Source: a virus. Taken from it: a stretch of 23,669 bases of DNA. Below, piece by piece: positions 2 through 17,595 of the stretch (within the stretch, counting starts at the first letter, position 1; the number at the start of each line of letters is the position of its first letter). The notes beneath the pieces were generated by a model, which was not told the DNA's origin, did no database searches, and saw only the letters and a program-made list of their open reading frames with translations. Location of the stretch: the IMG/VR virus record IMGVR_UViG_3300046003_001535, positions 1 through 23,669 of that record. One strand, written 5' to 3'. The translations under genes were made by a program, and so were the position numbers.

Positions 2-1885
2 AATCCTTCAACTGCCAACGGTTGGCCAGTAAACAGCACTTGGTATCACTTGTTATCTAGTACACATGTCAATGATGCCAATTATTATGCTATGCAGTTT
101 AGTGCAGATTTTTATGGGCAAAACTTATACTATAGAAGTACAGCAGGCAACGGAAGCACCGCTTGGAGTAAAATTTTACACAGTGGCAACTATAATGATT
201 ATGCTCCTAGCAAAGCTGGTGCTGGGGCAACCGGTACTTGGGCTATTTCTATTACAGGTAACTCTAATACAGTTACAACATTAAACTCTGGACAAATTGT
301 ATCAGCATTAGGATATACTCCAGTTAATCCCGGAGCATTAACTAATCAATCAGGTACTGCTATTAATGGTACAACAGCAACCTTTAGCGGTCAAGTAAAT
401 GTTTCAACATCGGGTATTAAGTTTCCTAATGACCCGTATGGTGGTAGTGGTGATACTGCTAGCATTACCTATGAATCAGTCAGTGGCGAAAAAACTAGAC
501 TGCGTTTTAGAGTAGCCAACGATGCTGGAATTACCTCAGTTGACGACAAAGCAGAATTTATTGTTCCAGACAACGACAGCTTATTAGTCAACGGTTATGT
601 TACACTTAATGCTGCCAACTACAATAGTTACTCTCCAACATTGTCCGGTGGTAACGCCAGCGGAACATGGGGTATCAATATTACTGGATCAGCTGGATCA
701 GCTGGATCAGTAGCGTGGAATTCAATTTCTGGAAGGCCTAATAATTTTGTTTTTAACGACGGCAATACTTATGGCATCAATGTAACTGGCAATTCTGGAA
801 CAGCCACCAGCTCTAGATTTGTTCAAAGTCCAGACGGTGATAGAAATCCAAATAATAAACTTCCGATAACATCAGGGCAATCAGTTAGGTTTGATTTTGC
901 CAATGCAGGTTATGTAGGAACCGGTGGTAATTATGCCGGTGTAATGACCTATGCTCCGTGGACTGGAACAACAGCATCAACTGGCGATGCAAGCTATCAA
1001 TTGGCATTTGGATCAACAGCAACTAACGGTAGCGGAACTCCGCAACTTCGTATTCGTAAGGGAATAGACAGTACTTGGAATAGCTGGTACGATTTATTAA
1101 CTAGTGCCAATTATAATAATTACTCCCCAACACTAACCGGTGGTAATGCCAGCGGCACTTGGGGCATTAATATAACCGGAAATGCAGGTACAGTATCTAG
1201 CATCACTACCCAACAGGTTGTTAACGCTCTAGGATTTACTCCTGCTAATCAATCTGATCTAACTAGAGTTACAACCAGTCCTTTACAAGCATCTAACATA
1301 ACGACTACTGGCACACTAACAGTAGCACAAGGTAGTGCCTTAGGAATTCGTTGGCCTAATGATGCTTTTGGCGGTGGTGGTGATACAGCAAGTATTACAT
1401 TAGAGACAGCGGGCTACTATGGTTCAGGCCTGCCCGCCGAAGCTACTCGCATGGTGCTTAAAGTAACTAATGATGCAGGGTATACTGGCGACAAAATTGC
1501 GTTTGACGTTCCGGACGCTAATTCAGTTGGTATACTGAGAGTTGCAAACAATCAAGTCTATCCGTTCTATAATTGGTTAAACATAGCATTTACCTCTGGT
1601 GTATCTACTTCAACTAGTGGATTTACCAATCAAGTAGGTTCATGGAATTTTGGTGCCAACTACTTTGATGTTTATCCGCCGGAATCTTATACTATGGCCC
1701 ATCTTGTTGTTTTTATTCCGTCAATTTATATTATTCATTTTGCAGGCGGAGTTAATGGTGATGATTCGATGGTATGTACTTGGAGTAATTTAGGTGATCG
1801 AATTAGGGTATATGTACAAAACACAGAACAGCGTAGCACCCCAGGTGCAAATTGGTTGGCCATTTGGAGAATACCATTGCCATGA
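2..1885 (+). CDS. Large repetitive tail fibre protein, 5' end missing
   Basis: The frame is open from base 2, so the gene begins upstream of the window; the TTG at 50 is only an internal codon. At least 627 codons remain. The protein is rich in Gly, Ser, Thr and Asn and has no enzyme motif. It is built of repeats: an NYNxYxPxxxGGxAxGTWxIxITG unit appears three times (near 185, 615 and 1110), a QxVxALGxTP unit twice (near 290 and 1215), and a PND.(Y/F)GGxGDTASIT unit with a following VxNDAG...FxVPD stretch twice (near 425 and 1350). The AWSKILHSGNY motif near 165-190 resembles the knob-like repeats of phage tail fibres and pyocins. The last ~100 residues (YTMAHLVV... to NWLAIWR) differ from the repeats and probably form the distal, receptor-binding tip. 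The product should sit in the virion tail. Family assignment is secure; receptor and exact fibre position are unknown. Confidence 0.85.
   Translation, partial: NPSTANGWPVNSTWYHLLSSTHVNDANYYAMQFSADFYGQNLYYRSTAGNGSTAWSKILHSGNYNDYAPSKAGAGATGTWAISITGNSNTVTTLNSGQIVSALGYTPVNPGALTNQSGTAINGTTATFSGQVNVSTSGIKFPNDPYGGSGDTASITYESVSGEKTRLRFRVANDAGITSVDDKAEFIVPDNDSLLVNGYVTLNAANYNSYSPTLSGGNASGTWGINITGSAGSAGSVAWNSISGRPNNFVFNDGNTYGINVTGNSGTATSSRFVQSPDGDRNPNNKLPITSGQSVRFDFANAGYVGTGGNYAGVMTYAPWTGTTASTGDASYQLAFGSTATNGSGTPQLRIRKGIDSTWNSWYDLLTSANYNNYSPTLTGGNASGTWGINITGNAGTVSSITTQQVVNALGFTPANQSDLTRVTTSPLQASNITTTGTLTVAQGSALGIRWPNDAFGGGGDTASITLETAGYYGSGLPAEATRMVLKVTNDAGYTGDKIAFDVPDANSVGILRVANNQVYPFYNWLNIAFTSGVSTSTSGFTNQVGSWNFGANYFDVYPPESYTMAHLVVFIPSIYIIHFAGGVNGDDSMVCTWSNLGDRIRVYVQNTEQRSTPGANWLAIWRIPLP
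684..710 (+). repeat. Three perfect tandem copies of a 9 bp unit in the fibre gene
   Basis: The unit CTGGATCAG occurs three times without mismatch. It encodes a Gly-Ser-Ala repeat just after one of the GTWGINITG units. The 9 bp unit keeps the reading frame, so slippage would lengthen or shorten a flexible fibre linker without breaking the gene. Confidence 0.9.
1795..1870 (+). repeat. Direct repeat, copy 1: end of the intact fibre gene
   Basis: These 76 bp match 1883-1958 at 72 positions, with a period of 88 bp. This copy codes in frame for the C-terminal residues IRVYVQNTEQRSTPGANWLAIWR of which the stretch up to WLAIWR is shared with copy 2. The fibre then ends with four residues (IPLP) not present after copy 2. 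Confidence 0.95.
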
Positions 1886-1964
1886 TCGAATTAGAGTATA
1901 TGTACAAAACACAGAACAGCGTAGCACCCCAGCCGCAAATTGGCTGGCCATTTGGAGAAGATAA
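1883..1964 (+). pseudogene. Remnant of an alternative tail-fibre 3' end (direct repeat, copy 2)
   Basis: Bases 1883-1958 repeat 1795-1870 with four mismatches. Read in the +1 frame relative to the fibre gene, the copy encodes IRVYVQNTEQRSTPAANW followed by LAIWRR and a TAA at 1962-1964. That TAA overlaps the ATG of the next gene (1964), and the GGAGA inside the remnant serves as that gene's ribosome binding site. The remnant therefore looks like the former natural end of the fibre gene, left behind when a new 3' end was placed in front of it. There is no start signal of its own, so it is probably not expressed alone. Confidence 0.75.
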
Positions 1965-2370: not shown

Positions 2371-3933
2371 ATGGCATACCAAATAGACAGATTTAACGGA
2401 ACATTTTTAGTTTCAGTCGATGATCAAACACTGAACAGTACCGCTACGGATCTGCGTTTTGTAGGCCGTAATTATAGCGGCTACGGTGAAATTGAAAATG
2501 AAAACTTCTTGCATTTGCTGGAAAATTTCGCCAACAGTTCAGCGCCGCCTAGAGCTATTTCTGGACAAACATGGTTTGACACCATTACAAAAAAGTTAAA
2601 AATCTACGACGGTAATAAATTTAAGGTAACAACAGGCGCAGAATCTAGTGCTACAGCGCCAGCAGGATTAGCCATTGGCGATTTTTGGTGGGACAACCAA
2701 AACGAACAGATCAAAGTATGGAACGGTACAGAATTTATCTTAGTCGGTCCTGAGAAATCACCAATATATGGTGATACTTCAACAGCACCAGCAGTGGTAA
2801 AAGATTCTGTGGGCAGTGACCAGCAGATTATCAAGTTCCAAGTTGGTGGCGAAACAATAGCAATTGTCAGTAGATCCACATTTAACCTTAACACAGTTAT
2901 AAATCCTATTACAGGATTTGGATTATTAAAGCCCGGCATTAACTTTATCAACAGTGATCCGACTACAGGTGAAACTAGTAGCACACATAGATTTATTGGA
3001 ACAGCATCTAATGCTGAAAGATTAGGAGGATTTGCGGCTACTGATTTTCTAAGATCCGGCAATGCTAGTTTTGAGTCTCAAGTGAGTTTTAAAGACAGCG
3101 GGTTTACAGTCGGAGATCAAAATGACTTCCGTTTAACAATATTAAACGGGACTAGCCCAACGCTAGAAAGTACTTCAAATAATCCTTTTATATTTAGAAT
3201 ATCAAACGGCGGTGGCGACATTAAAGATGTTGTAGTAGTTAAAACTACAGGAATCGATCCTGGATCGAATGGAACATATGACCTAGGATCAACGGCCGCT
3301 AAATGGAAAACAGTTAATGCTGAAGAAATAAAAGCAACAACTTTTTACGGAAAATTAATTGGAACTGTTGAGACCGCTGCAGGACCGGGCGGAGTAGTTC
3401 CTCCATTAGCAATACAAAGTATTGCGGTCAGCGGTAATTTTAATATGTCTGCAAGCAGTGGAGGCGCCGCATCAAATTTTAGTGTCAACCTTGCAGGTAG
3501 TACCAGTGCTGTAAATTTATCATCGGGCGTTAGAGGATCATTAGACAATTTTAACATTGGCGGTGATAACCCTGGTACAGCAGCTTTTACAACACTGGCG
3601 TCTAGCGGCACAGTAACTTTTACAAATACTGCTGTAAGTACTGGTGTTGGCACAGGTGCATTAGTTGTAGCAGGTGGTGCTAGTATTGGAGGCGCCATGT
3701 ATGTGCAAGGTAACGGAATATTTGCAGGAACTGGCGCAATAAAATTACCTAGCGGTACAACAGGCGCACGACCAACAGTTCCTCAACAAGGAATGATTAG
3801 ATTTAACACCACAGACGGTGAGTGGGAAGGCTACGATGGCATACAATGGAGATTCATTGGTGGCGATGCCGATGAAGACTACGGCTCAATCACTACGGCA
3901 GTTGATGTGTTTGTAGATTACGGCAGTTTATAA
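2371..3933 (+). CDS. Tail fibre-like virion structural protein, paralogue 1
   Basis: This 520-residue protein begins with a domain I know from marine T4-like phages: MAYQIDRFNGTFLVSV, then FVGRNYSGYG at 30-39 and NENFLHLLENFA at 43-54. Two WxD...K(I/V)(Y/W)(D/N)G repeats follow at 68-84 and 106-123. About 170 N-terminal residues are clearly related to the protein at 4529-6331, while the rest differ, as expected if the N-terminus docks on the tail or baseplate and the C-terminus reaches outward. Near the end come GALVVAGGASIGG, then IKLPSGTTGARP and GMIRFNTTDGEWEGYDG (455-490), a fibre module common in phage tail proteins. The start is supported by GGAG at 2360-2363. It likely belongs to the virion; its exact place is unknown. 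Confidence 0.8.
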   Translation: MAYQIDRFNGTFLVSVDDQTLNSTATDLRFVGRNYSGYGEIENENFLHLLENFANSSAPPRAISGQTWFDTITKKLKIYDGNKFKVTTGAESSATAPAGLAIGDFWWDNQNEQIKVWNGTEFILVGPEKSPIYGDTSTAPAVVKDSVGSDQQIIKFQVGGETIAIVSRSTFNLNTVINPITGFGLLKPGINFINSDPTTGETSSTHRFIGTASNAERLGGFAATDFLRSGNASFESQVSFKDSGFTVGDQNDFRLTILNGTSPTLESTSNNPFIFRISNGGGDIKDVVVVKTTGIDPGSNGTYDLGSTAAKWKTVNAEEIKATTFYGKLIGTVETAAGPGGVVPPLAIQSIAVSGNFNMSASSGGAASNFSVNLAGSTSAVNLSSGVRGSLDNFNIGGDNPGTAAFTTLASSGTVTFTNTAVSTGVGTGALVVAGGASIGGAMYVQGNGIFAGTGAIKLPSGTTGARPTVPQQGMIRFNTTDGEWEGYDGIQWRFIGGDADEDYGSITTAVDVFVDYGSL

Positions 3934-3954: not shown

Positions 3955-4527
3955 ATGGCAAAAAGAATACAATTTAGGCGAGGAAGCACAACAGAACATG
4001 CTACATTTGTTGGAGCTCCTGGCGAACTAACCATTGATACCACTAAGAAAACAGTGGTAGTTCATGACGGCGTTACTCCTGGCGGTTTTCCTGCAAGTCG
4101 TCTTGAGGCAGTAGACGGTACTTCAACATTTAACGGTCAAGTTAGAATGACCAATGCTACAGCCAGTACTTCTACAACAACTGGATCGTTAATAGTAGGC
4201 GGAGGTGTTGGAGTTGCTGGTAGAGTTACAGCTAGTAATTTTGTTGAAACATCAACAATTGCAGTAAAAGAAAATGTAAATCCTATATTAGACGCATTAG
4301 CTAGTATCATGCAATTAACCGGAGTTATCTACGATAGAAAAGATAAAACATCAATGAATGAACCCGGATTGATTGCCGAAGAAGTGGATAAAATATTGCC
4401 TAATCTAGTAACCAAAGATGACAACGGCAATCCCTACGGAATTCAATATACCAAGTTAGTTGCCTATTTGATCGAAGCAGTTAAAGATCAGCAACATCAG
4501 ATTGAAGAATTAAAGAAAAAGGTATAA
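3955..4527 (+). CDS. Small tail protein with S74-type self-cleaving chaperone domain
   Basis: The 190-residue protein starts with IQFRRGSTTEHATF and GELTIDTTKKTVVVHDG (5-39), matching the N-terminal domain found in many phage fibres and named after the Bordetella phage Mtd protein. The C-terminal half resembles the intramolecular chaperone (Peptidase_S74) of fibres and tailspikes: KENVNPILDAL at 105-115, GVIYDRKD at 123-130, GLIAEEVDKILPNLV at 138-152, YTKLVAYLIEAVK at 165-177 and a terminal coiled-coil helix. The Ser-Lys dyad of that family (S then K five residues later) is present as S100 and K105, so cleavage before S100 is predicted, leaving a 99-residue virion piece and a 91-residue chaperone. 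Lying between two paralogous fibre genes, it could act alone or on them. AGGAG at 3941-3945 precedes the ATG. Confidence 0.8.
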   Translation: MAKRIQFRRGSTTEHATFVGAPGELTIDTTKKTVVVHDGVTPGGFPASRLEAVDGTSTFNGQVRMTNATASTSTTTGSLIVGGGVGVAGRVTASNFVETSTIAVKENVNPILDALASIMQLTGVIYDRKDKTSMNEPGLIAEEVDKILPNLVTKDDNGNPYGIQYTKLVAYLIEAVKDQQHQIEELKKKV

Positions 4528-4528
4528 A

Positions 4529-6331
4529 ATGGCCTATCAAGTTAACCGATATAACGGTTCATTTTTAGTTTCAGTTGCCGACGGTACAATTGATTCAACT
4601 ACTAACATTAGATTTGTTGGTAAAAACTACGCCGGTTATGGACAAGTTCAGAATGAAAATTTTCTACATCTTTTAGAACATTTTGCCGGAGCTGTACAAC
4701 CTAGTAAACCACTTGCAGGACAATTGTGGTATGACAGCACAGATAGAAAAATCAAAGTCTACGACGGCACAAGATTTAGACCAGTAGGAGGCGCTAACGC
4801 AACAGCCACAGCCCCATTAGGTCTAAGTGCTGGTGAATTTTGGTTTGATAGTCTTGCACAGCAATTGTATTGCTGGACTGGCAGCGAGTACACGCTAATT
4901 GGTCCAGAAAGTCCAAGCACATTGGGAGAAACCAGCGTAACTTCGTTAACTGTTAAAGATGACGGAAACGAAAATAGAACTATTGCCCGATTAAAAGCAG
5001 GCGGAGTTGACATTGCAATCGTTAGCAAAGATACATTTAATTTAAGCGATGCTGACAAAACAACACTACCTAGTTTTGGCAGAATCAAAAAAGGTATTAC
5101 TTTAATTGGTACAGACAATGATGATGGAACAACAGCTACTGCATCTGGCGCAGTTATTTGGGGAACTGCATCGTCAGCTAACAAATTAGTTGATGCTGCT
5201 GACAGCACAATATTTTACACTAGTGATGATATTGTATTAAAATCTGAACCAGTATTTCCATCGGTGGTAGATTTTAGCGATAGCGGGTTTACATTTTCAG
5301 CTAGTGCCGCAGTTAAGGCATCGATATTTTTAGAAGATGCTTCAAACATTGTTATTCAAAATCAATCAGCAAGTAATATTAAATTTAAAATTAGAATTTC
5401 ATCTAGTGAAACTAGAACTTTAGCTAATATTACTACATCAGCTATTTTACCCGGATTAGATAGTAGTTATAATCTAGGCAGTGATGAGATTCGTTGGTAT
5501 CAAATATTTGCAGACAACATTGCTGGGAATCTTATTGGCGATGTAGTAGGAAATATTTCTGGTAATGTAAAAGCTATAGATACCACAGTATTAATTAATG
5601 GAACTTCAAAACAAATTGGATATAGTGGAGCAACTATAGTAGGTAACCTAACAGGTAATGTTGTAGGTAACCTAACAGGAAATGCAACTAGTGCTACTAA
5701 TGCCAGCAGATTAAACAATGTTGAAGCTAGTGATAGTGCAACGGTATCCACAATTGCTTCAAGAACTGCCAGTGGAAATTTAGTTGCCAATCAGTTTATT
5801 GGCGTTGCTGACAAAGCAGACCGTATTAAAATTGACAATGATGCCGCCGATAATCCTGCATCAGCATATAAAACTGCAAAAACAACAAAAACAGCTAATA
5901 CTATTGCAGCTAGAGATAGCAGTGGTAATTTAAGCGCCAACGTGTTCAACGGTACAGCTACAGCAGTATCTGGTGCTGATCTTGCTGAACAATATCTAGC
6001 AGACAAAGAATATGATGTTGGCACAGTGGTAATTGTAGGCGGAGAACGCGAAGTTACAGCCAGTATTTGGGTAGGACAAAGGGCAGTCGGTGTAGTAAGT
6101 GGTGCTCCTGGCCTAATGATGAATCAAGACCTAGAAGGTGGCACTTACATTGCACTTAAAGGCCGTGTACCAGTTAGAGTTATTGGACAGGTTCGTAAAG
6201 GCGATAGGCTAGTAGCAGCACCAGACGGATGCGCAATGGCTAGTGAAGATGCCAATGCTAACACCTTTGCAGTAGCTTTAGAATCCAGTTTAAATACAGA
6301 AGTAAAAATAATTGAAGCAATTGTTCTTTAA
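4529..6331 (+). CDS. Tail fibre-like virion structural protein, paralogue 2
   Basis: The 600-residue protein shares its first ~170 residues with the protein at 2371-3933 (MAYQVNRYNGSFLVSV, FVGKNYAGYG, NENFLHLLEHFA, two WxD/YDG repeats, and an IAIVSKDTFNL end to the shared part). The middle carries GN-repeats (GNLIGDVVGNISGNV near 330, GNLTGNVVGNLTGNA near 373) typical of beta-helical fibre shafts. The last ~119 residues start at GADLAEQYLADKEYDVGTVV (482) and include GRVPVRVIGQVRKGDRLV, a domain I recall at the ends of many phage fibre proteins, related to autoproteolytic G2-like tail domains. No catalytic residues can be assigned with confidence. Only one base separates it from the upstream stop, so translation is probably coupled. 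It is expected on the virion surface. Confidence 0.8.
   Translation: MAYQVNRYNGSFLVSVADGTIDSTTNIRFVGKNYAGYGQVQNENFLHLLEHFAGAVQPSKPLAGQLWYDSTDRKIKVYDGTRFRPVGGANATATAPLGLSAGEFWFDSLAQQLYCWTGSEYTLIGPESPSTLGETSVTSLTVKDDGNENRTIARLKAGGVDIAIVSKDTFNLSDADKTTLPSFGRIKKGITLIGTDNDDGTTATASGAVIWGTASSANKLVDAADSTIFYTSDDIVLKSEPVFPSVVDFSDSGFTFSASAAVKASIFLEDASNIVIQNQSASNIKFKIRISSSETRTLANITTSAILPGLDSSYNLGSDEIRWYQIFADNIAGNLIGDVVGNISGNVKAIDTTVLINGTSKQIGYSGATIVGNLTGNVVGNLTGNATSATNASRLNNVEASDSATVSTIASRTASGNLVANQFIGVADKADRIKIDNDAADNPASAYKTAKTTKTANTIAARDSSGNLSANVFNGTATAVSGADLAEQYLADKEYDVGTVVIVGGEREVTASIWVGQRAVGVVSGAPGLMMNQDLEGGTYIALKGRVPVRVIGQVRKGDRLVAAPDGCAMASEDANANTFAVALESSLNTEVKIIEAIVL
5639..5679 (+). repeat. 17 bp direct repeat with 24 bp period in fibre gene
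   Basis: GTAGGTAACCTAACAGG occurs at 5639-5655 and again at 5663-5679. It encodes the GNLTGN repeat of the shaft. The near identity at DNA level, unlike the other more diverged GN units of this gene, suggests a recent in-frame duplication. Confidence 0.9.
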
Positions 6332-7292: not shown

Positions 7293-7643
7293 ATGGACGA
7301 CAGATTATCTAAGGCTCTTGAGTTTGCCAATTATCGTCAAACTCTAGCTATCCAGAGAAAAACCCTTAAAGAAAAAATTGCTGCAAAGCTAACCTACGGC
7401 CATGCTGGCGGGCTATTCAAAATCAATCGTGAGCTCATTGTATTTGTACAAATGCTGATTGATCAAGGCCGTACGGAAAATGTACCCTTTGTTGACGAAA
7501 ATGGAAATCCGGTACTCGTAGCTGACCTACACTCTTTTAAAGATGAAATCATAGACAGGTACTTTACCGCTACCTATGAATACTATGAAGACTATCAAAA
7601 GATTAAATCTAGTAGAACAGTTGAAAAGTTATTGGATGTATGA
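7293..7643 (+). CDS. Conserved-looking small phage protein of unknown function
   Basis: The 116-residue protein is mostly helical and charged: SKALEFANYRQTLAIQRKTL at 5-24, then FVQMLIDQGR near 51-60, a loop with DENGNPV near 68-74, and FKDEIIDRYFTATYEYYEDYQKIKSSRTVEKLLDV at the end (stretch positions 82-116). I recall similar proteins, with the same DxRLxKALEFxNYR start and YFTATYE end, beside tail genes of marine T4-like phages, always without known function. It has no signal peptide, membrane segment or metal motif. CGGAG at 7283-7287 supports the ATG. Its stop overlaps the start of the glycosyltransferase gene (ATGA), so it is the first gene of the operon. A structural or chaperone role is possible but not shown. 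Confidence 0.6.
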   Translation: MDDRLSKALEFANYRQTLAIQRKTLKEKIAAKLTYGHAGGLFKINRELIVFVQMLIDQGRTENVPFVDENGNPVLVADLHSFKDEIIDRYFTATYEYYEDYQKIKSSRTVEKLLDV

Positions 7644-8500
7644 CTCGAGGCGTATTAATATTTGCTCACAACAGCCCTGATATTGATTACGGTCTAATGG
7701 CCACAATTGCAGGAGGACTTGCCAAAAAGAATCTAGATGTTCCTGTGAGTCTTGTAACTGACTTAGGTACACTAGACTGGTTGCGAGAGTCCGGTACATT
7801 GGTCAAAGCACAGGCAGTATTTGATCAAATTATACAAGTGACTAGACCTTACACTAAGAATGTGAGAAATTTGCATGACGGATTTGAAAGCAAAGTTATT
7901 CCATTTGTAAATTCAAATAGATACAGCGTGTGGGAACTTAGCCCTTACGATCAAACACTGTTGATAGACAGCGACTATCTAATCTTTTCCAACAAGTTAA
8001 ATGAGTATTGGTCAGTAGATGCCCCAGTAATGATGGGGCACAGTATGACAGACCTTACTGGAGAGCGTGGCGGCATTCTTGACAGTCGTGTAAGTGAAAC
8101 CGGCGTACACATGTTCTGGGCTACAACAGTGATGTTTGACAAGAGCTCCGAAAGCGAATTCTTTTTTAAACTAGTAGACTTTGTCAAAGACAATTATGTC
8201 TACTATGCAGATCTATTCCGTTTCAATCCCAAACAGTTCAGAAACGACATTGCCTTCAGTGTTGCTAAACATATTATGAATGGATTTGAAACTGAGTTTG
8301 CCTACACACTTCCTCCCATTCTAACAGTCTTTGACAAAGACATTTTACACAATGTTGAACAAGATAGACTGACATTCCTAGTCAGTCAGCCACACGATGT
8401 TGCAGGTTTTTGGGCTGCTACAACCAAGGGTACTGATGTTCATATTATGAATAAACAAAGCATAATCAGAAACGCCCACAGTCTTCTGGAATTAATATGA
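7640..8500 (+). CDS. Predicted GT-A-type glycosyltransferase (DSD motif), copy 1
   Basis: The 286-residue protein is predicted to transfer a sugar from a nucleotide-sugar donor. The N-terminus gives a Rossmann-like strand (GVLIFAHNS, 4-12) followed by helix and VSLVTD (36-41). LLIDSDYLIF (107-116) contains the DSD that would bind the metal and nucleotide, in the usual hydrophobic setting. HMFWATTVMFD and FRNDIAFSVAKHIMNG follow in the second half, as in GT8-like and related GT-A enzymes. It shares its plan with the next gene (FAHNSPDIDY versus VAAHPDIDYL at the start). No membrane anchor is seen, so it should be cytoplasmic. ATGA overlaps link it to both neighbours. Donor and acceptor cannot be read from the sequence. 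Confidence 0.7.
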   Translation: MTRGVLIFAHNSPDIDYGLMATIAGGLAKKNLDVPVSLVTDLGTLDWLRESGTLVKAQAVFDQIIQVTRPYTKNVRNLHDGFESKVIPFVNSNRYSVWELSPYDQTLLIDSDYLIFSNKLNEYWSVDAPVMMGHSMTDLTGERGGILDSRVSETGVHMFWATTVMFDKSSESEFFFKLVDFVKDNYVYYADLFRFNPKQFRNDIAFSVAKHIMNGFETEFAYTLPPILTVFDKDILHNVEQDRLTFLVSQPHDVAGFWAATTKGTDVHIMNKQSIIRNAHSLLELI

Positions 8501-9333
8501 ACTTTGGATATCTAATATTTGTAGCAGCCCATCCCGATATAGACTATCTTAAATTGGCCTATGCTTTAGCTCTGAGCATTAAGAATACACAGAAACCGGG
8601 CTATGATCGAGTAGCACTGATAATCAATGACAAGTCAGCAGTTGATACATTAAAAAGCCCCTGGGTGTTTGACAAAGTTATAGAGTGGCCAGAACAAAAG
8701 TTCTGGGACGGCCGATCGTGGATGGACGAAATAACACCGTGGGAACACACAGTTTGCCTAGATGCCGACATGTTGTTTCTTAGAGATTACAGCCACTGGA
8801 TTGACTACTTTGTAGAAAACACAGAAGTATATGTGGCTAATCGTGCATTTACATTTAGAGGTGAGGTAGTTACCAGTGATACTTATCGTAGAGCATTTAC
8901 CAAAAACGATTTGCCCAACTTATATTCAATGTGGACTTTCTTTAAGAAAGATAGCGGTAAAGAATTCTTTGAACTTGCTCGTCAGATTTTTATTAATCCA
9001 CAGGAATTTAAAAATCTGTATCTAAGCAATCATGTTCCTAAAGTTATAGGCACAGACGAAGCGTTTGCACTAGCGGCCAAGTTGTTAGACATTGACAGTG
9101 AAATTGCCTACCCTTTAGATTTTCCTAGACTAGTACACCTAAAGCCTAGGGTGCAGAATTGGCCCTGGGATGCAGAGCGTGTGACTGACCAAGCAGGATT
9201 TTATCTCAAAGGCGACGGTAGTTTAAAGATTGGAAATTATCAACAGACCGACATTGTGCATTATGTTGAAAAAGACATAATTACAGATGAGTTGGTTAGT
9301 ATGTTAGAGGAGATAGCATGGAAGAAAAACTAG
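8497..9333 (+). CDS. Predicted GT-A-type glycosyltransferase (DAD motif), copy 2
   Basis: The 278-residue protein is related in design to the preceding one. FGYLIFVAAHPDIDYLKLAY (3-22) forms the first strand and helix, VALIINDKSAVDTL (39-52) a second, and VCLDADMLFL (86-95) carries the DAD metal-binding motif. A conserved-looking VIGTDEAFALAAKLL occurs in the second half, where GT-A enzymes of this type have an acceptor-side (N/T)DE(A/x)F motif. The C-terminus includes HLKPRVQNWPWD. It is probably a soluble cytoplasmic transferase. The ATG overlaps the stop of the preceding gene (ATGA) and its own 3' end overlaps the next gene by 16 bp. Pairing with copy 1 suggests two successive sugar additions, which is inference. 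Confidence 0.7.
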   Translation: MNFGYLIFVAAHPDIDYLKLAYALALSIKNTQKPGYDRVALIINDKSAVDTLKSPWVFDKVIEWPEQKFWDGRSWMDEITPWEHTVCLDADMLFLRDYSHWIDYFVENTEVYVANRAFTFRGEVVTSDTYRRAFTKNDLPNLYSMWTFFKKDSGKEFFELARQIFINPQEFKNLYLSNHVPKVIGTDEAFALAAKLLDIDSEIAYPLDFPRLVHLKPRVQNWPWDAERVTDQAGFYLKGDGSLKIGNYQQTDIVHYVEKDIITDELVSMLEEIAWKKN

Positions 9334-9920
9334 ACCTTGCTCCCTTTGACGAGTGGATAAAAACACTTGAAGTTCCCGAAGAGACCTACTTCTTTGAGTT
9401 CGACACTGAAGGCAATGTCGTCGCACTTCATCCCGGACCAGCAGTTGATCATATTAAAAATAAAATACAAGTTGATCTTGATGTTGCGTTGGGTATATAT
9501 GAGCGCGGAGAAACTCTACGGCACTATAAAGTGGATGTGATTTCGGGTAGAGTTATAAAAGTAAATCTTGCCAGCATCACTGGTCTTACTAAAATAGACG
9601 ATGTCTTGCATAGAGTTGTTGACAAGAAGTGGAGCAAAGTTGCTAAACCTGATGTCAGCATAGAATATTCTAGAGAAGACGCTCTATTGACATTTAAGAT
9701 TAATCCTTTACTGAAAACTATAGAATGGCAAGGTGATCAAGACATGGTATTTTTAATAACAGAATACAACGATCCTAATGTATTACAAGAAATGATCAGC
9801 TTCAATGTCAACGAACTGGTAAAATACCCACAGCGGTTTACACTGGTGCTTCCAGAAAAGTTTAGCATTTACACACGAAGAATTTTTGACAAGTATACCT
9901 ATGAAGACACTAGAGCTTGA
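9318..9920 (+). CDS. Unrecognised phage protein within the sugar operon
   Basis: I do not recognise this 200-residue protein as an enzyme. The N-terminus has an acidic stretch (LAPFDEWIKTL, 7-17), then YFFEFDTEGNVVALHPGPAV (24-43), and the middle is likely beta-rich with alternating hydrophobic residues (YKVDVISGRVIKVNL). KIDDVLHRVVDKKW lies near 92-105. The last third (FLITEYNDPN..., FTLVLPEKFSIYTRR) also looks like beta strands. I recall proteins with a similar DLxPFDEW and FFEFDxxGNV start near fibre genes of marine phages, again unassigned. GAGGAG at 9307-9312 makes the ATG at 9318 firm. It overlaps the upstream gene by 16 bp and the downstream one by 20 bp. A virion or carrier role is as possible as an enzymatic one. 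Confidence 0.55.
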   Translation: MEEKLDLAPFDEWIKTLEVPEETYFFEFDTEGNVVALHPGPAVDHIKNKIQVDLDVALGIYERGETLRHYKVDVISGRVIKVNLASITGLTKIDDVLHRVVDKKWSKVAKPDVSIEYSREDALLTFKINPLLKTIEWQGDQDMVFLITEYNDPNVLQEMISFNVNELVKYPQRFTLVLPEKFSIYTRRIFDKYTYEDTRA

Positions 9921-10779
9921 TATTGTTTTTTTAAGTTATGATGAGCCTAATGCTGACCAGCACTATGCTGACCTATGCAATAAGGTGCCATGGGCCAAGC
10001 GTGTTCACGGTGTTAAAGGCAGTGATGCTGCCCACAAAGCCGCAGCAGAACTCAGCGAAACAGATTGGGTTATCACGGTGGACGCAGACAATATTGTGGA
10101 CAATAGATTTTTCAATCTAGGATTTGATCCCGACAACAAGGACATACAGGTCTACAGTTGGTTGGCTAGAAATCGTATCAACGGATTGTTATATGGCAAC
10201 GGTGGCCTAAAAATATGGCGCAAAGATTTCATCCTCAACATGAAGAGTCATGAGGCCAGCGACAACGATCGTGCGCAAGTAGACTTCTGTTGGGAAGATG
10301 GTTATAAACAGTTTGCCGAATGTTACAGTGAAACAGTTATCACTGGAAGTCCATTTCAAGCATGGCGAGCAGGATTCCGCGAAGGCGTTAAAATGACTCT
10401 GCTTGACGGAGTTCGTATTCCAGCTGACGAGATTAAAGAACGCATCTGGTGGCATAATCTACATAGACTTAAAGTTTGGAGCACCGTTGGCGCACACGAA
10501 GAAAACGGCCTATATGCAGTCTATGGTGCAAGACTAGGTCAATGGATGACCAATTGTACTGATTGGAACTATGTAGATGTTAGAGACTTTGAAATCTTAA
10601 AAAACATCTACAATGAAAATGTCAATCATACCAATCTAGAACACGACATACAGGATCTAGGCTATCACATTAAACGAGGTATGGGATTTGATTATCCTTA
10701 CCTAGATGCAGATCAAAGCAAGTATACTCTAGACCTTTACGAAGAAACAATTAAACTTACTAACACCTACCTAAGATGA
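9901..10779 (+). CDS. Predicted GT-A-like glycosyltransferase of the VHGVKG family
   Basis: The 292-residue protein begins LDIVFLSYDEPNADQHYADL (6-25), then AKRVHGVKGSDAAHKAAAEL (32-51) and WVITVDADNIVD (56-67). The last segment supplies a DAD motif in a family-2-like Rossmann setting. YSWLARNRINGLLYGNGGLK follows, and an acidic AxWRAGFREGVKM segment near 152-164 may face the acceptor. The same order of motifs recurs in the third module of the next gene, so the two are paralogues. I chose the ATG at 9901 rather than the TTG at 9886 because it is the first ATG; the SD signal is weak, and overlap with the upstream stop (9918-9920) suggests coupling. Donor and acceptor are unknown; the enzyme should be cytoplasmic. 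Confidence 0.65.
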   Translation: MKTLELDIVFLSYDEPNADQHYADLCNKVPWAKRVHGVKGSDAAHKAAAELSETDWVITVDADNIVDNRFFNLGFDPDNKDIQVYSWLARNRINGLLYGNGGLKIWRKDFILNMKSHEASDNDRAQVDFCWEDGYKQFAECYSETVITGSPFQAWRAGFREGVKMTLLDGVRIPADEIKERIWWHNLHRLKVWSTVGAHEENGLYAVYGARLGQWMTNCTDWNYVDVRDFEILKNIYNENVNHTNLEHDIQDLGYHIKRGMGFDYPYLDADQSKYTLDLYEETIKLTNTYLR

Positions 10780-12170
10780 TCTACGATATTTTTTATGTAA
10801 GCAAAGAAAAGATTAGCGATATTGAATGGCAGCAATTTCGTAACCGATTCCCGTCTGCTCAAAAAATTGAAAATGTAAAAACCATAGACGATGTAAAGAA
10901 AAAATCATTTACAAAATTCTTTTGGCTTGTTTGGGACGATGTTGTAATTGCAGATAATTTTACATTTGATTATCGCGTAGAAAAATGGGATGAAGATTAT
11001 GTCCATGTGTTTAAGAACAGTTGTAATGGCGCGGAATCCTACATCTCTGGAATAACATTGATTCCTAAAAAAGCAACTATACTTAAAAAAGAATTTGATT
11101 TTAAATTCTATGTAAACAAAAAAGAAACAGGTATAGTAGCCAGTAAGTTTCAATATCCTATTAGACATATTGATAGCTATGAGCAATACCTCAAGATAGT
11201 CAATGAAGAATCTAAGTCAATGTTTTGGTGTGTGCGTAACGATATTAATTTAATCAACAACAATATCTTTGATTTATATTTTGACCCGTTAGATGGAAAG
11301 TACGATTACGATCGCAGTATAAATCATGTGTTTAAAAACGGAGAGTCATTTGACGGACTCATGCTGGCCAGTAAAGATAAAATTTTAATGGAAAAAGAAT
11401 TCAAGTATAGATTTCCTATAGAAAAAAAAGAATGGGATATTGTTGCCAGCAAACCTAAACCTTATGATGTTGTGTTTATAAGTTACAACGAATCTAATGC
11501 AGATGCAAACTACGAAAAGTTAAAATTAAAAAGACCAGATGCTAAAAGAGTACACGGTGTAAAAGGTATACACAATGCTCATCTAGCTGCTGCCGAATCA
11601 GTCACAACAGAAATGTTTTGGGTAGTAGATGCCGACGCTGAGCTAGTTGATGACTTTAATTTTGAAATAGAATATATTCCTCATTATGATGCTGGAAATA
11701 GATTAGAACAAACATCAATGGTACATGTATGGGCTAGTCAAAATCCAATTAATGATCTTGTTTACGGCTACGGCGGAGTTAAATTATTGCCAACAAAATT
11801 AACCTTAGAAATGGATACTGAGTCAGTAGATATGACGACCAGCATCAGTAAAAAATTTAAAGCGGTTAATCAAATTAGCAACATTTCTGCTTTTAATGTT
11901 GACGAGTTTAGCACATGGCGTAGCGCATTTAGAGAATGTGTTAAATTATCTACCAAAGTTATTAATGAACAATACGATGAAGAAACTGAAAATAGATTAT
12001 TTTTATGGTGTGTGGTTGGAGAAACTCGACCATTTGGAAAATATGCAATTGACGGCGCAGTTGCAGGAAAAAAATACGGCGAGGCAAATATCAACGACTT
12101 TGATTCTTTAAGAAAAATTAATGATTACACTTGGATATTAGAACAATTTAACAAAGCATACAATGAATAA
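10776..12170 (+). CDS. Three-module GT-A-like protein, only the last module with an intact DAD
   Basis: The 464-residue protein contains three copies of one module. Module 3 (residues ~227-464) is complete and related to the preceding protein: DVVFISYNESNADANYEKL, AKRVHGVKG, FWVVDADAELVDDFNFE (281-297), VHVWASQNPINDLVYGYGGVK, then WRSAFRECVKLS. Module 1 (~1-125) has FWLVWDDVVIADNFTFDY (49-66) and VHVFKN; module 2 (~126-226) has FWCVRNDINLINNNIFDLYF (150-169) and NHVFKN. Each of the first two ends in IVASK. In modules 1 and 2 the DAD is replaced by WDD and RND and the later half is lost, so they are probably not catalytic and may bind substrate or partner. DNA here looks more A-rich than in the genes just upstream. 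ATGA joins it to the upstream gene. Confidence 0.65.
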   Translation: MIYDIFYVSKEKISDIEWQQFRNRFPSAQKIENVKTIDDVKKKSFTKFFWLVWDDVVIADNFTFDYRVEKWDEDYVHVFKNSCNGAESYISGITLIPKKATILKKEFDFKFYVNKKETGIVASKFQYPIRHIDSYEQYLKIVNEESKSMFWCVRNDINLINNNIFDLYFDPLDGKYDYDRSINHVFKNGESFDGLMLASKDKILMEKEFKYRFPIEKKEWDIVASKPKPYDVVFISYNESNADANYEKLKLKRPDAKRVHGVKGIHNAHLAAAESVTTEMFWVVDADAELVDDFNFEIEYIPHYDAGNRLEQTSMVHVWASQNPINDLVYGYGGVKLLPTKLTLEMDTESVDMTTSISKKFKAVNQISNISAFNVDEFSTWRSAFRECVKLSTKVINEQYDEETENRLFLWCVVGETRPFGKYAIDGAVAGKKYGEANINDFDSLRKINDYTWILEQFNKAYNE

Positions 12171-13521
12171 TCTTGAAACAATTAAAAAATTCATTCCTAT
12201 AATGAATGAAATTTCGCCTACATTCTGCATGGCCAAATGGCATCACACCACTATCTATTTGCAAACGGGAGAAACGCATAGTTGTTATCATCCTAGACCA
12301 CACAAAATTTCGTTAGACGAAATTGCTATAGATCCTAGCGCCCTGCACAACACAGAACAAAAAAAACTAGAAAGACTAGAAATGTTAAATGGCGGAAAGC
12401 CTAGTGGATGTCAGTACTGCTGGAATATTGAAGCAATGGGCGAGGATTATGTTAGCGACCGCAAAGAGCGCAACAGCACAATATATAGAGCCGATAGATT
12501 TGAACAGATTAAAAGTGGCCCATGGGATCAAAACATAAATCCTGAATACATTGAAATTAGCTTCGGCAATGAATGTAATTTCAAATGCGGATACTGCCAT
12601 CCTAAACATAGCAGCGCCTATCATAAAGAAATTAAAATGCACGGGCCTTATACTGCTGTGAATAATCATCGAAACGACATAGATTGGTTTAAAGTCTACG
12701 AAGAAGAAACCAATCCTTATGTTGAAGCATGGTGGAAGTGGTGGCCAGAAGTTAGCAAAACTCTAAATATTCTACGCATCACAGGCGGCGAGCCATTGCT
12801 ACAAGCTAGTACATGGAGGCTATTAGAAGACCTAGACAAAAATCCTCTACCCAACTTAGAACTAAACATCAATAGTAATTTTGGTGTAAAGCCTATTCTA
12901 GTCGATAGACTAGTAGAGCGTATTAATAAGTTACTTGTAGAAAAAAAGATCAAAAAGTTTAAAATGTTTACTAGTATGGATACTTGGGGACCACAAGCAG
13001 AATACATCCGTACAGGATTGGATTTAGAACTATGGGAAAGAAATCTTAAAAAATACTTAGCAGACACTGATTTGTCGATAACTTTTATGGTTACATTTAA
13101 TATTCTCACAGTTACTAATTTTCAAACATTGTTAGAAAAAATATTAGAGTGGAGGAAAGAATACCCATTCAATACAGATTATCGTGTAAAATTTGATACC
13201 CCTTATCTTAAAGAACCACTACAATACGACATGAATATACTTCCTAAAGAAGAGTTTATGCCATACATGCATAAGCATCTTGAATTTATTAAAGAAAATG
13301 TTAATGATAAGAATCTTAATAAATTCACAAGTTTAGAATATGAACGATTTAGACGTGTAGTTGACTATATGGAAACTACACACTATTCAAAAGATAAAAT
13401 TAAAGAAGGTCGAAAAGATTTTTATAATTGGTTTACAGAATATGATCGTAGAAGATCAGTAGATTTTGTTACTACATTTCCTACAATGGTAGATTTTTAT
13501 AATAGATGTAAAGATGAATAA
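12163..13521 (+). CDS. Radical SAM protein with extra N-terminal cysteines (twitch-like)
   Basis: The 452-residue protein carries the radical SAM signature CxxxCxxC as CNFKCGYC (C138, C142, C145), expected to bind a 4Fe-4S cluster and cleave S-adenosylmethionine to a radical. ISFGNEC leads into it and RITGGEPLL (205-213) supplies the GGEP SAM-binding motif. Four further cysteines lie N-terminal to the core: FCMAKWHH (C22), HSCYHP (C41) and GCQYCWN (C83, C86); they could hold an auxiliary cluster, although such twitch or SPASM cysteines are usually C-terminal. I recall this layout from radical SAM proteins of marine phages and bacteria annotated as twitch-domain. The substrate is unknown; a sugar nucleotide or a fibre residue is suggested by the neighbours. 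It overlaps the upstream gene by 8 bp and the next by 8 bp. Confidence 0.8.
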   Translation: MNNLETIKKFIPIMNEISPTFCMAKWHHTTIYLQTGETHSCYHPRPHKISLDEIAIDPSALHNTEQKKLERLEMLNGGKPSGCQYCWNIEAMGEDYVSDRKERNSTIYRADRFEQIKSGPWDQNINPEYIEISFGNECNFKCGYCHPKHSSAYHKEIKMHGPYTAVNNHRNDIDWFKVYEEETNPYVEAWWKWWPEVSKTLNILRITGGEPLLQASTWRLLEDLDKNPLPNLELNINSNFGVKPILVDRLVERINKLLVEKKIKKFKMFTSMDTWGPQAEYIRTGLDLELWERNLKKYLADTDLSITFMVTFNILTVTNFQTLLEKILEWRKEYPFNTDYRVKFDTPYLKEPLQYDMNILPKEEFMPYMHKHLEFIKENVNDKNLNKFTSLEYERFRRVVDYMETTHYSKDKIKEGRKDFYNWFTEYDRRRSVDFVTTFPTMVDFYNRCKDE

Positions 13522-14806
13522 AAAAATTAATTTAGCCTACGAATGGATAGGCCCAACCGGACCGTTGACAAACAATAGAATGCCTACATTAGCTGACCTA
13601 ATGACTGCATCAGTAGACTATCACTTTCCGCAGTTAAAAGGCGATCTATTTCAAAAGCCACATTTTCATTCTAGGATAGTCGACTCTAGGATTGTGTCTA
13701 CTTATAAACTTCCTCAAGAAATATTCTTGTATGAATTAAATTGGAATACCTTTCATTACAGAGATAAGTTTCATAACTTTCATAGTGCAGACGGACTTTT
13801 TGATGACAATCAAATTGATATCAAAGTACTAAACAGAGTGCAAAACAAGACAGCTTATTTTCTTGTAACGCTGTTCTATGAAGGGTACATGGATGACGAA
13901 TTTTTAAACCATCTATCAGATTACTTTACATCTAAAGGCTTGTCGCTAACACAGGTAATTTATCTAACTAACTGTTACAATGGTAAAGAAGTATATGAAG
14001 ATTATTGCAGGCGCAATCATAAATTGCCAGAAATGCAAATGGAATACTTTCCTGTGTTTAGAATTGACCGATGTAATATCCAACAGGCAATTGCAGAGTC
14101 TGTAAACTCAACATATCGACCGGGTCCTCGCAAAAAAACATTCTTGTGCTTTAATAGACGATATAATGATCATAGATTGATGTTGTACTTGGCAATAGTA
14201 CAACGTGGCCTAATTGATCAGTGTTATTACAGCATGGATAAAACTCAGCCCGAATCCACTAGAACATTTGTTGAAAATTGCAAATACTTAATAAGTAGAT
14301 TCCCTGACATGGGATTAACCAGCACCGATGTGTTGGTCGCGGATAAGTTATTGCCTTTGGTATTAGACAATCCTAATTTTAGTCAATATCCCATGGAGCA
14401 CAGTGTTGATCCAGTTAAACACTTATATGATAATTCTCTAGTTAATATTGTTACTGAAACATATTTCTTTAATAACATTATTCACATTACAGAAAAGACC
14501 TACAAGCCAATTGCTTTTATGCAGCCCTTTATATTGTTAGGTGCCGCTCGAAGTCTACAGCATGTTAAAGATATGGGATTTAAAACATTTGGAGAATTCT
14601 GGGATGAAACCTACGATCTAGAATTAGATGACAAACAACGTTTTAATAAGATAATAGCAGTAATAGAATCTATAGCTAAGTGGACAGAACAACAGCGAAT
14701 AGAGTTTACTGTTAGAGTTAAAGATATCATTGACTACAATGTCAATCATTTAAATACAATGCAAGATATTGAAATTGAAAATTTGGTGAAAAAATATGGA
14801 ACATAA
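13514..14806 (+). CDS. Glycosyltransferase-like protein with ITEKTxKP domain, copy 1
   Basis: The 430-residue protein ends in a domain that also occurs in two other proteins of this operon. Its marks are FLCFNRRYNDHR (210-221), IVTETYF (312-318), HITEKTYKPI (324-333), QPFILLGA (337-344), GFKTFGEFWDETYD (355-368) and a terminal helix with a D-rich start. I know such proteins from marine phages and surface-polysaccharide clusters of bacteria, where they are thought to be glycosyltransferases of GT-B-like type; the Glu-Lys-Thr-x-(K/R)-P stretch resembles the donor-binding part of fucosyltransferase-like enzymes. That link is from memory and unproven. The N-terminal ~200 residues are less conserved and may hold the acceptor side. 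The gene overlaps its neighbours by 8 and 11 bp. Confidence 0.6.
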   Translation: MNKKINLAYEWIGPTGPLTNNRMPTLADLMTASVDYHFPQLKGDLFQKPHFHSRIVDSRIVSTYKLPQEIFLYELNWNTFHYRDKFHNFHSADGLFDDNQIDIKVLNRVQNKTAYFLVTLFYEGYMDDEFLNHLSDYFTSKGLSLTQVIYLTNCYNGKEVYEDYCRRNHKLPEMQMEYFPVFRIDRCNIQQAIAESVNSTYRPGPRKKTFLCFNRRYNDHRLMLYLAIVQRGLIDQCYYSMDKTQPESTRTFVENCKYLISRFPDMGLTSTDVLVADKLLPLVLDNPNFSQYPMEHSVDPVKHLYDNSLVNIVTETYFFNNIIHITEKTYKPIAFMQPFILLGAARSLQHVKDMGFKTFGEFWDETYDLELDDKQRFNKIIAVIESIAKWTEQQRIEFTVRVKDIIDYNVNHLNTMQDIEIENLVKKYGT

Positions 14807-16922
14807 AAAAATATTAGTATGCGGAGCAGGTGGATTTATTGGAACACACCTAGTTACCAGTTTAAAAAGTCAAGGGCACTACGTTGTTGGTGTTGATTTA
14901 AAATTTCCAATGTATTCTAAAACTGATGCAGACGAGTTTCACATAGTTGATTTAAGAAATCAGGATCTAGTAGCCAAGATTGTTACTAGCGACCTAGATG
15001 AAATTTATCAATTAGCAGCAGATATGGGCGGTACCGGGTATATAGGCACAGGTGAAAATGATGCCGATATAATGCATAATAGTGCTGTAATTAATCTCAA
15101 CATTCTAAATGAGATGGTTAAGAAGGATGTTAAGAATGTATTCTATACCAGTAGTGCCTGTGTCTACCCAGAATACAATCAACTAGATCCAAATAATCCC
15201 AATTGTGAAGAATCGAGTGTATATCCAGCAGAACCTGATACAGAGTATGGTTGGGAAAAACTATTCAGTGAACGTCTGTATCTAAGCTACGGTCGCAACT
15301 ATGGGTTCAGAGTTCGTATTGCTAGATTACACAATGTATTCGGTCCACTGGGATCTTGGTGTGATGGTAAAGAAAAAGCGCCAGCAGCATTATGCCGTAA
15401 GGTAATTGAAAGCACAGGAGAAGTAGAAGTCTGGGGTCCTGGTAATCAGACTCGCAGTTTTATGTATATAGATGAGTGCATCAAAGGTATTCACCTAATG
15501 ATGGCCTGCGCTAGTCAACTGCCAATTAATCTTGGCAGTGATAGAATGATCAGCATTAACGATCTAGTATTGTTAATTGCCAAGTTGGCCGGTAAAGATA
15601 TTAAAATTAAAAATATTCCCGGACCCCAAGGTGTTATGGGCCGTAACAGCGACAACAATTTAATCAAAGGTTTAATTGGTGGATGGGCGCCAGCCGATGC
15701 ACTAGAGTACGGACTGACAAAAACCTATGCCTGGATCAAAAGTCAAAAGAAGATTTTTAGTAAGACAGGCAAAGTATATGACCTAAGAGTAGACAAAAAT
15801 TTCATTGCTCCTTTGACCGAGTGTGAATGTGCGCCTAATTCAATTTATTACTTTCACTACTATTACGATCTACACGACGGTGTAGGTATCCTAGATAGCC
15901 TAGAAGAAAAGCATTGGGATCATTTACGAACTGATCCGACAGCCAAGTTTCTTTATGAAAATTGCAATGAAACATTCACCTACAAACTAGCAGATGACAT
16001 TGCCAAAGTAATAACAGAAAAAAATATACATCCTTCTAAGATCTATATGATAGTAATGGATGATGTACATAAAAACTTTCTAAGTAAACGATTAACCGAA
16101 AGATCAATTTACGGAGTCAACATAGGTGTGTTTAACGATTTATTGGCAAAGACACAGATACACGACAATCAACATACTGAACACAAATTCAGTATGCTGA
16201 GTAGAAATTATCGTCCTTGGAGACTGCACCTATATGCTGAACTGGCGCAGCAGGATCTATTGAAAGACTTTAGATATAGTTTTTACAACATATTCCCCTA
16301 TGGTGAAGTTAGATACTTTGACAAAGACACAATGGCTAAAGATCTAACTGCATTGAACTTTAAAATAGATTCTAATGTAGACACTTGGTTATCCGGAGTG
16401 CCTTATACACTAGATGCTAGTGACAATGTTCTAAACAAATGGGGTGATGTAACCTACGATGCAATCCTAAATGCAGATTTTCATATTCTAGTAGAAACAC
16501 ACTATGATGTATCCTATTATGTAGATACTAGAAAAGGTAATTTAAGAGATCTAGCGCCTAGTAGCATTACCGAAAAAACCAATAAGCCCATTGCCTGCGG
16601 CAAGCCCTTTATTGCATTTTCTACGGCACACTTCTTAGAAGACTTCCGTAGTCTAGGATTCAAAACATTCAGTCCGTATATAAACGAATCATACGATCTT
16701 GAAGAAGACAATCACAAAAGACTAAGTATGATAGTTGCCGAAATAAAAAGAATATCAGAATTACCAAAAGATCAATATGACGAGCTGCTGTTTAATTGTC
16801 GTTTAATCGCAGCTAAAAATCGTGAAATATTGCTTTCTAAGAAAGACAACACAGCATACAATGCATCGTTTGAATTTTTAAGGAGTTATTTTGAGTCACA
16901 GTCAAATATACAAATTCTTTAA
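14796..16922 (+). CDS. Fusion of GDP-mannose 3,5-epimerase-like enzyme and ITEKT glycosyltransferase-like domain
   Basis: The 708-residue protein has two parts. Residues 1-~315 are a short-chain dehydrogenase-type NDP-sugar epimerase: GAGGFIG (10-16) binds NAD, AADMGG (74-79), SSACVYPE (119-126) and YGWEK (151-155) form the active site, with GKEKAPAA (191-198) and QTRSFMYIDEC (218-228) as in plant GDP-mannose 3,5-epimerase. C122, Y151, K155 and K194 match the catalytic residues I recall for that enzyme, so GDP-mannose to GDP-L-galactose is the best guess. Residues ~320-708 carry the domain also found at 13514-14806 and 18182-19381: SRNYRPWR (469-476), LVETHY (565-570), SITEKTNKPIACGKPFI (590-606), GFKTFSPYINESYD (621-634). 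The fusion suggests that the epimerised sugar is made and transferred by one protein. Its end overlaps the next gene by 32 bp. Confidence 0.75.
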   Translation: MEHKKILVCGAGGFIGTHLVTSLKSQGHYVVGVDLKFPMYSKTDADEFHIVDLRNQDLVAKIVTSDLDEIYQLAADMGGTGYIGTGENDADIMHNSAVINLNILNEMVKKDVKNVFYTSSACVYPEYNQLDPNNPNCEESSVYPAEPDTEYGWEKLFSERLYLSYGRNYGFRVRIARLHNVFGPLGSWCDGKEKAPAALCRKVIESTGEVEVWGPGNQTRSFMYIDECIKGIHLMMACASQLPINLGSDRMISINDLVLLIAKLAGKDIKIKNIPGPQGVMGRNSDNNLIKGLIGGWAPADALEYGLTKTYAWIKSQKKIFSKTGKVYDLRVDKNFIAPLTECECAPNSIYYFHYYYDLHDGVGILDSLEEKHWDHLRTDPTAKFLYENCNETFTYKLADDIAKVITEKNIHPSKIYMIVMDDVHKNFLSKRLTERSIYGVNIGVFNDLLAKTQIHDNQHTEHKFSMLSRNYRPWRLHLYAELAQQDLLKDFRYSFYNIFPYGEVRYFDKDTMAKDLTALNFKIDSNVDTWLSGVPYTLDASDNVLNKWGDVTYDAILNADFHILVETHYDVSYYVDTRKGNLRDLAPSSITEKTNKPIACGKPFIAFSTAHFLEDFRSLGFKTFSPYINESYDLEEDNHKRLSMIVAEIKRISELPKDQYDELLFNCRLIAAKNREILLSKKDNTAYNASFEFLRSYFESQSNIQIL
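16881..16885 (+). promoter_or_regulatory. Ribosome binding site AGGAG deciding a TTG start
   Basis: AGGAG lies five bases before the TTG at 16891 and inside the 3' end of the upstream gene. No ATG in that frame has a comparable signal, so the TTG is taken as the true start of the oxygenase gene. Confidence 0.75.
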
Positions 16923-17595
16923 TGAATTGAATCAGTACTACGATCCTACCGAATTAGCAGTAAGTCATGCTGAAGGTTCTCCAGTCCCCTACACGATCAT
17001 AGACAATTTTTTACCCGATGAACTATTCAATACACTAAGTTTTGAAGTTGATTTCTTACAAGAAAGTGATTGGACTGTGTTTAGTAAAGGAACAAGTTAT
17101 AGAAAAGAGTGCAGAAATTTTACCAGCACTCCTAGAATACAATCAATGGCCTATAGTTTTCAAGGTAGTATATTTCTCAAATGGATAGAACAACTAACAG
17201 GCATTGACAAACTAGTAGGAGATCCTCACCATCGAGGTGGCGGCATAACCCGTATGCCTACTGGAACCAGTCTAGGACTTCACAATGACTTCAATTGGAA
17301 TGAACAAATTAGACTTACTCGTCGTGCCAATGTAATATTATACATGAATCCCGTTTGGGAAGAAAGTTGGGGCGGAGAATTAGAGTTTTGGGACTTTGAC
17401 CGAACTGAATGCCTAGTTAAAATTGCACCCAAGCCCAATAGACTGGCCGTATGGAATTACGACGAACGTCTGATACACGGTCAGCCACATCCATTGACCT
17501 GCCCTGACTCCGTAGAAAGACAAAATTTCATACAGTTTTATTATAGTAGTAATGCTACGCATGAAACTCCACCTCATCGCAGTCAATTTGTCTAA
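16891..17595 (+). CDS. 2OG-Fe(II) oxygenase, prolyl-4-hydroxylase-like
   Basis: The 234-residue protein has the facial triad of 2-oxoglutarate/iron oxygenases: HND with H131 and D133, and H196 in LIHGQPHP. R210 (in ERQNFIQFYY) can bind the 2-oxoglutarate carboxylate. YTIIDNFLP (34-42) opens the domain, GGGITRMPTGTSLGLHNDF (116-134) leads into the metal site and GGELEFWD (161-168) follows, which is the usual order in prolyl-4-hydroxylase-like enzymes of phages and bacteria. It would hydroxylate or oxidise a carbon of a sugar or a protein side chain. Start is TTG with AGGAG at 16881-16885. It overlaps the upstream gene by 32 bp and shares TAATG with the next gene. Placement among sugar enzymes points to glycan or fibre modification, which is inference. 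Confidence 0.85.
   Translation: MSHSQIYKFFNELNQYYDPTELAVSHAEGSPVPYTIIDNFLPDELFNTLSFEVDFLQESDWTVFSKGTSYRKECRNFTSTPRIQSMAYSFQGSIFLKWIEQLTGIDKLVGDPHHRGGGITRMPTGTSLGLHNDFNWNEQIRLTRRANVILYMNPVWEESWGGELEFWDFDRTECLVKIAPKPNRLAVWNYDERLIHGQPHPLTCPDSVERQNFIQFYYSSNATHETPPHRSQFV

Follow-up and report, generated by a model that had tools for sequence, protein, structure and literature searches.

The 3' end of the tail-fibre gene in this viral DNA has undergone a real remodelling, which is confined to one lineage and is ordinary in kind, as both duplications and the exchange of fibre ends are already known. The best explanation, and in our view a probable one, is a partial duplication with added filler, which turned the old end into a leader of the following gene. 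The analysed stretch (hereafter the window) comprises 23,669 nucleotides, positions 1–23,669 of IMG/VR record IMGVR_UViG_3300046003_001535, and the features of the fibre and chaperone genes given below lie on its plus strand. The direct repeat is located at 1795–1871 (copy 1) and 1883–1959 (copy 2), with an identity of 73/77, a period of 88 bases, and a +1 change of frame. The runner-up ungapped 77-base match, within positions 1001–2400 and at shifts of 20–600, reaches 39/77. The preliminary description gave 72/76, which is the same 77-base block minus one base, and its account of the two copies, their frames, and the overlap of TAA and ATG behind them is accurate.

The 11 bases between the copies (1872–1882, TACCATTGCCA) are unrepeated, and the relatives have no homologous sequence at this place. 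A point missing from the earlier account is the composition of the four extra codons: A1871 and the 11-nt filler form ATA CCA TTG CCA (IPLP), and the new stop codon TGA (1883–1885) is made up of the three bases that open copy 2, i.e., the presumably ancestral GGT-GAT out of frame (GGT GAT or AGT GAT in relatives). From copy 2 to copy 1 the four differences are A–G, C–G, C–T, and C–T, and they alter a single amino acid, Ala to Gly, where the last strand of the encoded tip begins. The frame that corresponds to copy 1 stays open and undamaged in copy 2 up to TAA at 1962–1964, which would be the original stop codon. Copy 2, apparently the original 3' end, is probably untranslated and now forms a leader before the chaperone gene.

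The fibre gene itself is represented in the window by its 3' part (50–1885, 611 amino acids, ending with ...WLAIWRIPLP and TGA). The full open reading frame, available from an overlapping record designated L041, has about 1,510 codons and starts with MAYIINRFDGT upstream of the window. The C-terminus matches phrog_30680 (E 4e-21), and a phage protein search with the tip returns only distant relatives, from Winogradskyella, Cellulophaga, and Synechococcus phages (40–46% identical). A nucleotide search of annotated phages with positions 1201–2400 gave no match, and neither the junction nor the tip motif was matched in genome contigs. The gene also contains two in-frame internal repeats that are 75–78% identical (425–479 with 1355–1409, and 613–701 with 1105–1193); judging from these, internal duplication appears to be a recurrent mode of change in it.

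The next gene (1964–2344, 126 amino acids) matches phrog_188, tail fiber assembly protein (E 6.6e-6), and phrog_8716 (E 4.2e-7). Being located directly downstream of the fibre gene and matching a fibre-assembly family, it qualifies as a Tfa-like chaperone; a phage protein search with its product found no relative. As the preliminary description had it, the second copy ends in a TAA that overlaps the chaperone ATG and supplies its ribosome binding site; the overlap with the ATG (1964–1966) is one base, and the likely site is GGAGA, just 5' of that ATG. In single-copy relatives the chaperone gene starts within the fibre stop codon or a short way behind it. Here the two are 78 bases apart, and direct coupling between fibre and chaperone is therefore probably weakened, with the ribosome binding site kept. 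A 33-codon open reading frame, whose ATG at 1882 overlaps the TGA (ATGA), crosses the chaperone start and ends at 1983; it is regarded as incidental.

Regarding the age of the two ends, the most informative genomes are the nearest relatives, L003 and L036, each of which has one copy that ends in ...TPAANWLAIWRR-TAATG (WRR-TAATG) and is fused to the same chaperone start. Downstream, most of the DNA that can be aligned with the window is about 84–87% identical in L036 and about 70–80% in L003. Copy 2 differs from L003 and L036 at 2 of 77 positions each, copy 1 at 4 and 6, respectively (and at 4 from copy 2), and all other relatives have at least 13 differences in 77 from either copy. A scan for the chaperone start recovers only three lineages, those of the window, L003, and L036. 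At three of the four bases that distinguish the copies, copy 1 alone departs from L003 and L036, and the fourth (1807) varies among relatives. Because these two genomes have the end of copy 2 fused to the same chaperone start and three of the four differing bases changed in copy 1 only, the sequences support the view that the natural end of older date is copy 2. The preliminary description had taken the second copy for the older one and proposed a search for genomes with only that end joined to the chaperone gene, and L003 and L036 are such genomes.

Outside these lineages, two family searches yielded 53 other distinct fibre ends, none of which has a second copy within 300 bases downstream. 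The IPLP terminus is absent from all relatives, these 53 ends included; the DNA pattern for WRIPLP occurs in 8 other contigs, none of them at a fibre end; and the PGANW variant, according to a scan of the viral collection, is found nowhere outside the window lineage, represented there by L041. Thus, not all relatives carry two copies, and within the data sampled the event appears to be confined to one lineage. Since relatives lack an IPLP end and PGANW does not occur outside the lineage, the IPLP ending looks like a by-product of the insertion and not an imported natural terminus. The earlier proposal that the gene acquired another 3' end through a swap of tips consequently loses ground: no relative ends in IPLP, the ending is made of filler plus a stop codon taken over from copy 2, and what is repeated varies less than any other part of the tip, its loop being the same in the two copies. 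The broader suggestion that such leftovers record swapping in general finds no further instance among the 53 other ends.

As for the protein, an AlphaFold2 model of the last 103 residues, based on an alignment of 32 tips, predicts a lectin-like jellyroll (1574–1882, mean pLDDT 88.6), with IPLP following the last strand. The last strands of the model span residues 77–83 and 91–99. Since the repeat encodes both of them together with the loop between (RIRVYVQN-TEQRSTP-GANWLAIWR in copy 1), and the last strand ends at residue 99, the expressed gene is predicted to keep a complete tip domain, behind which IPLP trails a finished fold. The tip probably still works. The two copies encode exactly the same loop, TEQRSTP, and VYVQNTEQR does not vary across the aligned tips, partly by selection, as contigs were found with that motif; for these reasons the duplication alone would seem to have left the variable, specificity-like segment unchanged. 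Structural neighbours of the model include discoidin I/II, Helix agglutinins, SLL-2, the LKA1 and phi297 tailspikes, the R1/R2 pyocin fibres, and AP22 gp53. The Z scores, best first, are 8.0 for discoidin I, 7.2 for Helix aspersa agglutinin, and 5.6 for R2 pyocin, with none above 8, and the best Foldseek hit against PDB has E 0.067. None of the 32 members matches Pfam lectin families at E 1, and a PDB sequence search with the tip has no match at E 1. Given Z scores of at most 8.0 and no sequence matches, the likeness to the R-pyocin foot and H-type lectins is best described as a predicted resemblance of fold and not as proven membership.

The surroundings of the repeat contain several further features. 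Three fibre-like genes (2371–3933, 4529–6331, and the fibre open reading frame seen in L041) begin with the same type of N-terminal segment, MAY-x-x-(D/N)R-(F/Y)-(N/D)G, as if one anchor domain were combined with different tips. Between the first two, 3955–4527 encodes a 190-aa protein with a major-tropism-determinant N-terminal domain and an S74 intramolecular chaperone domain. Downstream of the fibres, non-structural genes follow one another over 7640–19381; one encodes a radical SAM-like protein (12163–13521), and others, by inspection, are putative genes for glycosyltransferases and a sugar epimerase/dehydratase. In the comparison of the three genomes, the segment 1788–2122 (fibre 3' end plus the first half of the chaperone gene) has about 88–100% identity per 40-base block with flanks mostly at 65–90%, which hints at a stretch that is preferentially exchanged or under constraint. 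A second island of high identity, 2322–2562, lies where the next fibre-like gene begins; there the window and L036 share about 95–100% in most blocks and L003 does not, which likely marks a recombination boundary.

The reality of the repeat is supported by a second record. In a scan of viral contigs with a pattern for the coding motif, 62 contigs were found, and only L041 (IMGVR_UViG_3300046000_006225, 29,715 bases) contains the motif twice, 88 bases apart. The two records coincide without mismatch along 19,049 bases, the two copies included, and each reaches beyond the other. L041 is therefore the same strain in a second record; it backs the reality of the repeat and is not a second evolutionary case. 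An assembly artefact, in which two strain variants of one end were joined in tandem, is accordingly highly improbable. The 4-base difference between the copies would fit strain variants. However, two records of different extent are identical here (both may derive from related read sets), and an assembly would have had to read across the 11-nt filler, which relatives lack at this place. The possibility that the identity of the copies reflects assembly error, raised in the preliminary description, is thus not borne out by this comparison of the two records.

According to the favoured account, a single 88-base insertion, composed of a near-copy of the last 77 coding bases and 11 bases of filler, would have occurred at the 3' end of the fibre gene in this lineage, likely as a partial tandem duplication through illegitimate recombination or template switching. 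Lying upstream, the added copy would complete the tip domain, the filler would add IPLP, and the shifted frame would make TGA out of the bases with which the old end starts; that end would persist untranslated as the 78-base leader with the ribosome binding site of the chaperone gene. Copy 1 is of this lineage's own type, being closest to copy 2, L003, and L036 (4–6 differences), and duplication in place is favoured by the Asn codon before Trp, which has T in both copies and C in L003 and L036. Three observations run counter to it. The translated copy 1 holds three bases found in neither relative and copy 2 holds none of its own, whereas duplication followed by decay would predict private changes in the free copy 2 instead, although the numbers are tiny. 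Position 1807 groups copy 1 with L003 and copy 2 with L036, in conflict with the grouping at 1852. The filler also has no convincing source: a search of the loci and the two overlapping records yielded only short, near-chance matches, among them one inverted 11-mer match about 3.1 kb before the window begins.

The first two of these might be explained by unequal recombination between co-infecting close relatives, in which copy 1 and its upstream DNA came from another strain and were joined at TGATCG, with the recipient's own end left behind; this is the swap of the preliminary description restricted to close relatives, and we consider it unlikely, if still to be reckoned with. Every private difference sits in copy 1, and such an exchange would account both for the private changes of the translated copy and for the grouping at 1807. 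The junction is also the most conserved DNA among three otherwise diverged genomes, as exchange would leave it: at four-fold sites the tip end is identical at 11/11, the first 55 chaperone codons at 75–91%, and most flanks at about 40–60%. Exchange of fibre plus chaperone is, moreover, well documented (PMC10579305). On the other hand, the viral collection yielded no donor of this tip or ending, the filler follows no natural end in the family, no relative is closer to copy 1 than copy 2 is, and both copies encode an identical loop. A stretch of 77 bases with two conflicting sites is too little to separate duplication from recombination with a close relative, and duplication is taken as the more probable of the two. 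Compatible with duplication, and very unlikely as a separate explanation, is the idea that copy 2 was retained to regulate the chaperone gene as its leader, which would act through the ribosome binding site and an adjoining CCAGCC/GGCTGG hairpin, with the 33-codon reading frame carrying ribosomes across. All three copy-1-specific changes fall in the hairpin arms, which are kept in copy 2, L003, and L036; however, the stability of the 96-base leader is not unusual, the stem is absent from the wider family, and the encoded protein dictates most of its letters.

A +1 ribosomal frameshift at CCA-TGA, which would lengthen the fibre so that it has both hairpins (...WRIPLP-DRIRVYVQNTEQRSTPAANWLAIWRR), has a negligible chance of being correct. 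The downstream frame is open and undamaged up to the TAA ending at 1964, but a recent or ancestral end would have an intact frame in any case. CCA would re-pair poorly as CAT, the stability of the downstream RNA is no greater than that of shuffles (z −0.17), and none of the 53 other distinct ends lengthens the tip in this way. To our knowledge, the site also lacks the prfB-like spacing of a ribosome binding site, which counts against a +1 shift. The earlier idea of a shift near the TGA at 1883 that yields a protein with both ends is thus backed neither by the site nor by RNA folding, and CCA-TGA was rejected as a programmed +1 site. It is equally hard to believe that both ends are used, i.e., that most ribosomes stop at TGA and a few shift to make tips with the second hairpin and mixed fibres on each virion. 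Two further mechanisms were rejected: invertible ends of the Mu G or P1 C segment type, as the copies are direct repeats with no inverted repeat flanking them, and a diversity-generating retroelement, as the changes are not confined to template adenines.

Under the preferred reading of partial duplication, a fibre gene would have been caught soon after the remodelling of its 3' end, with the old end in place and ancestor-like single-copy relatives available. It would show that a short partial duplication can give such a gene a new stop codon and rebuild its coupling to the chaperone gene while the tip domain is preserved. Its value is that of an illustration, as duplications in fibres and exchange of their ends are known already and the case comes from one strain.

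Exchange of the fibre 3' end together with the chaperone is known from T-even gp37/gp38, from P2, and from Alteromonas phages A5, V22, and P24 (PMC10579305). The present case resembles it in place (fibre 3' end and chaperone start) and in the raised DNA identity among relatives; in contrast, it is the conserved hairpin and not the variable part that is repeated, the donor was not found, and specificity need not change. In phage EfV12-phi1, in-frame tail-fibre duplications of 1.8 kb arose during coevolution (PMC6365445). Under the favoured account, both cases represent partial tandem duplications within a long fibre gene, but here the duplication is 88 bp long, out of frame, and at the extreme end, so that the stop codon is replaced and the fibre is not lengthened. 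As for the tip, the R-type pyocin foot has discoidin, Helix agglutinin, octocoral lectin SLL-2, LKA1, phi297, and AP22 gp53 as structural neighbours (PMC6363177). The tip studied here is likened to the R-type pyocin foot and H-type (discoidin-like) lectin tips as a predicted jellyroll at the fibre C-terminus, with the neighbours reported for the pyocin foot; it differs in having no sequence match to solved structures or a Pfam lectin family, and its sugar binding is putative.
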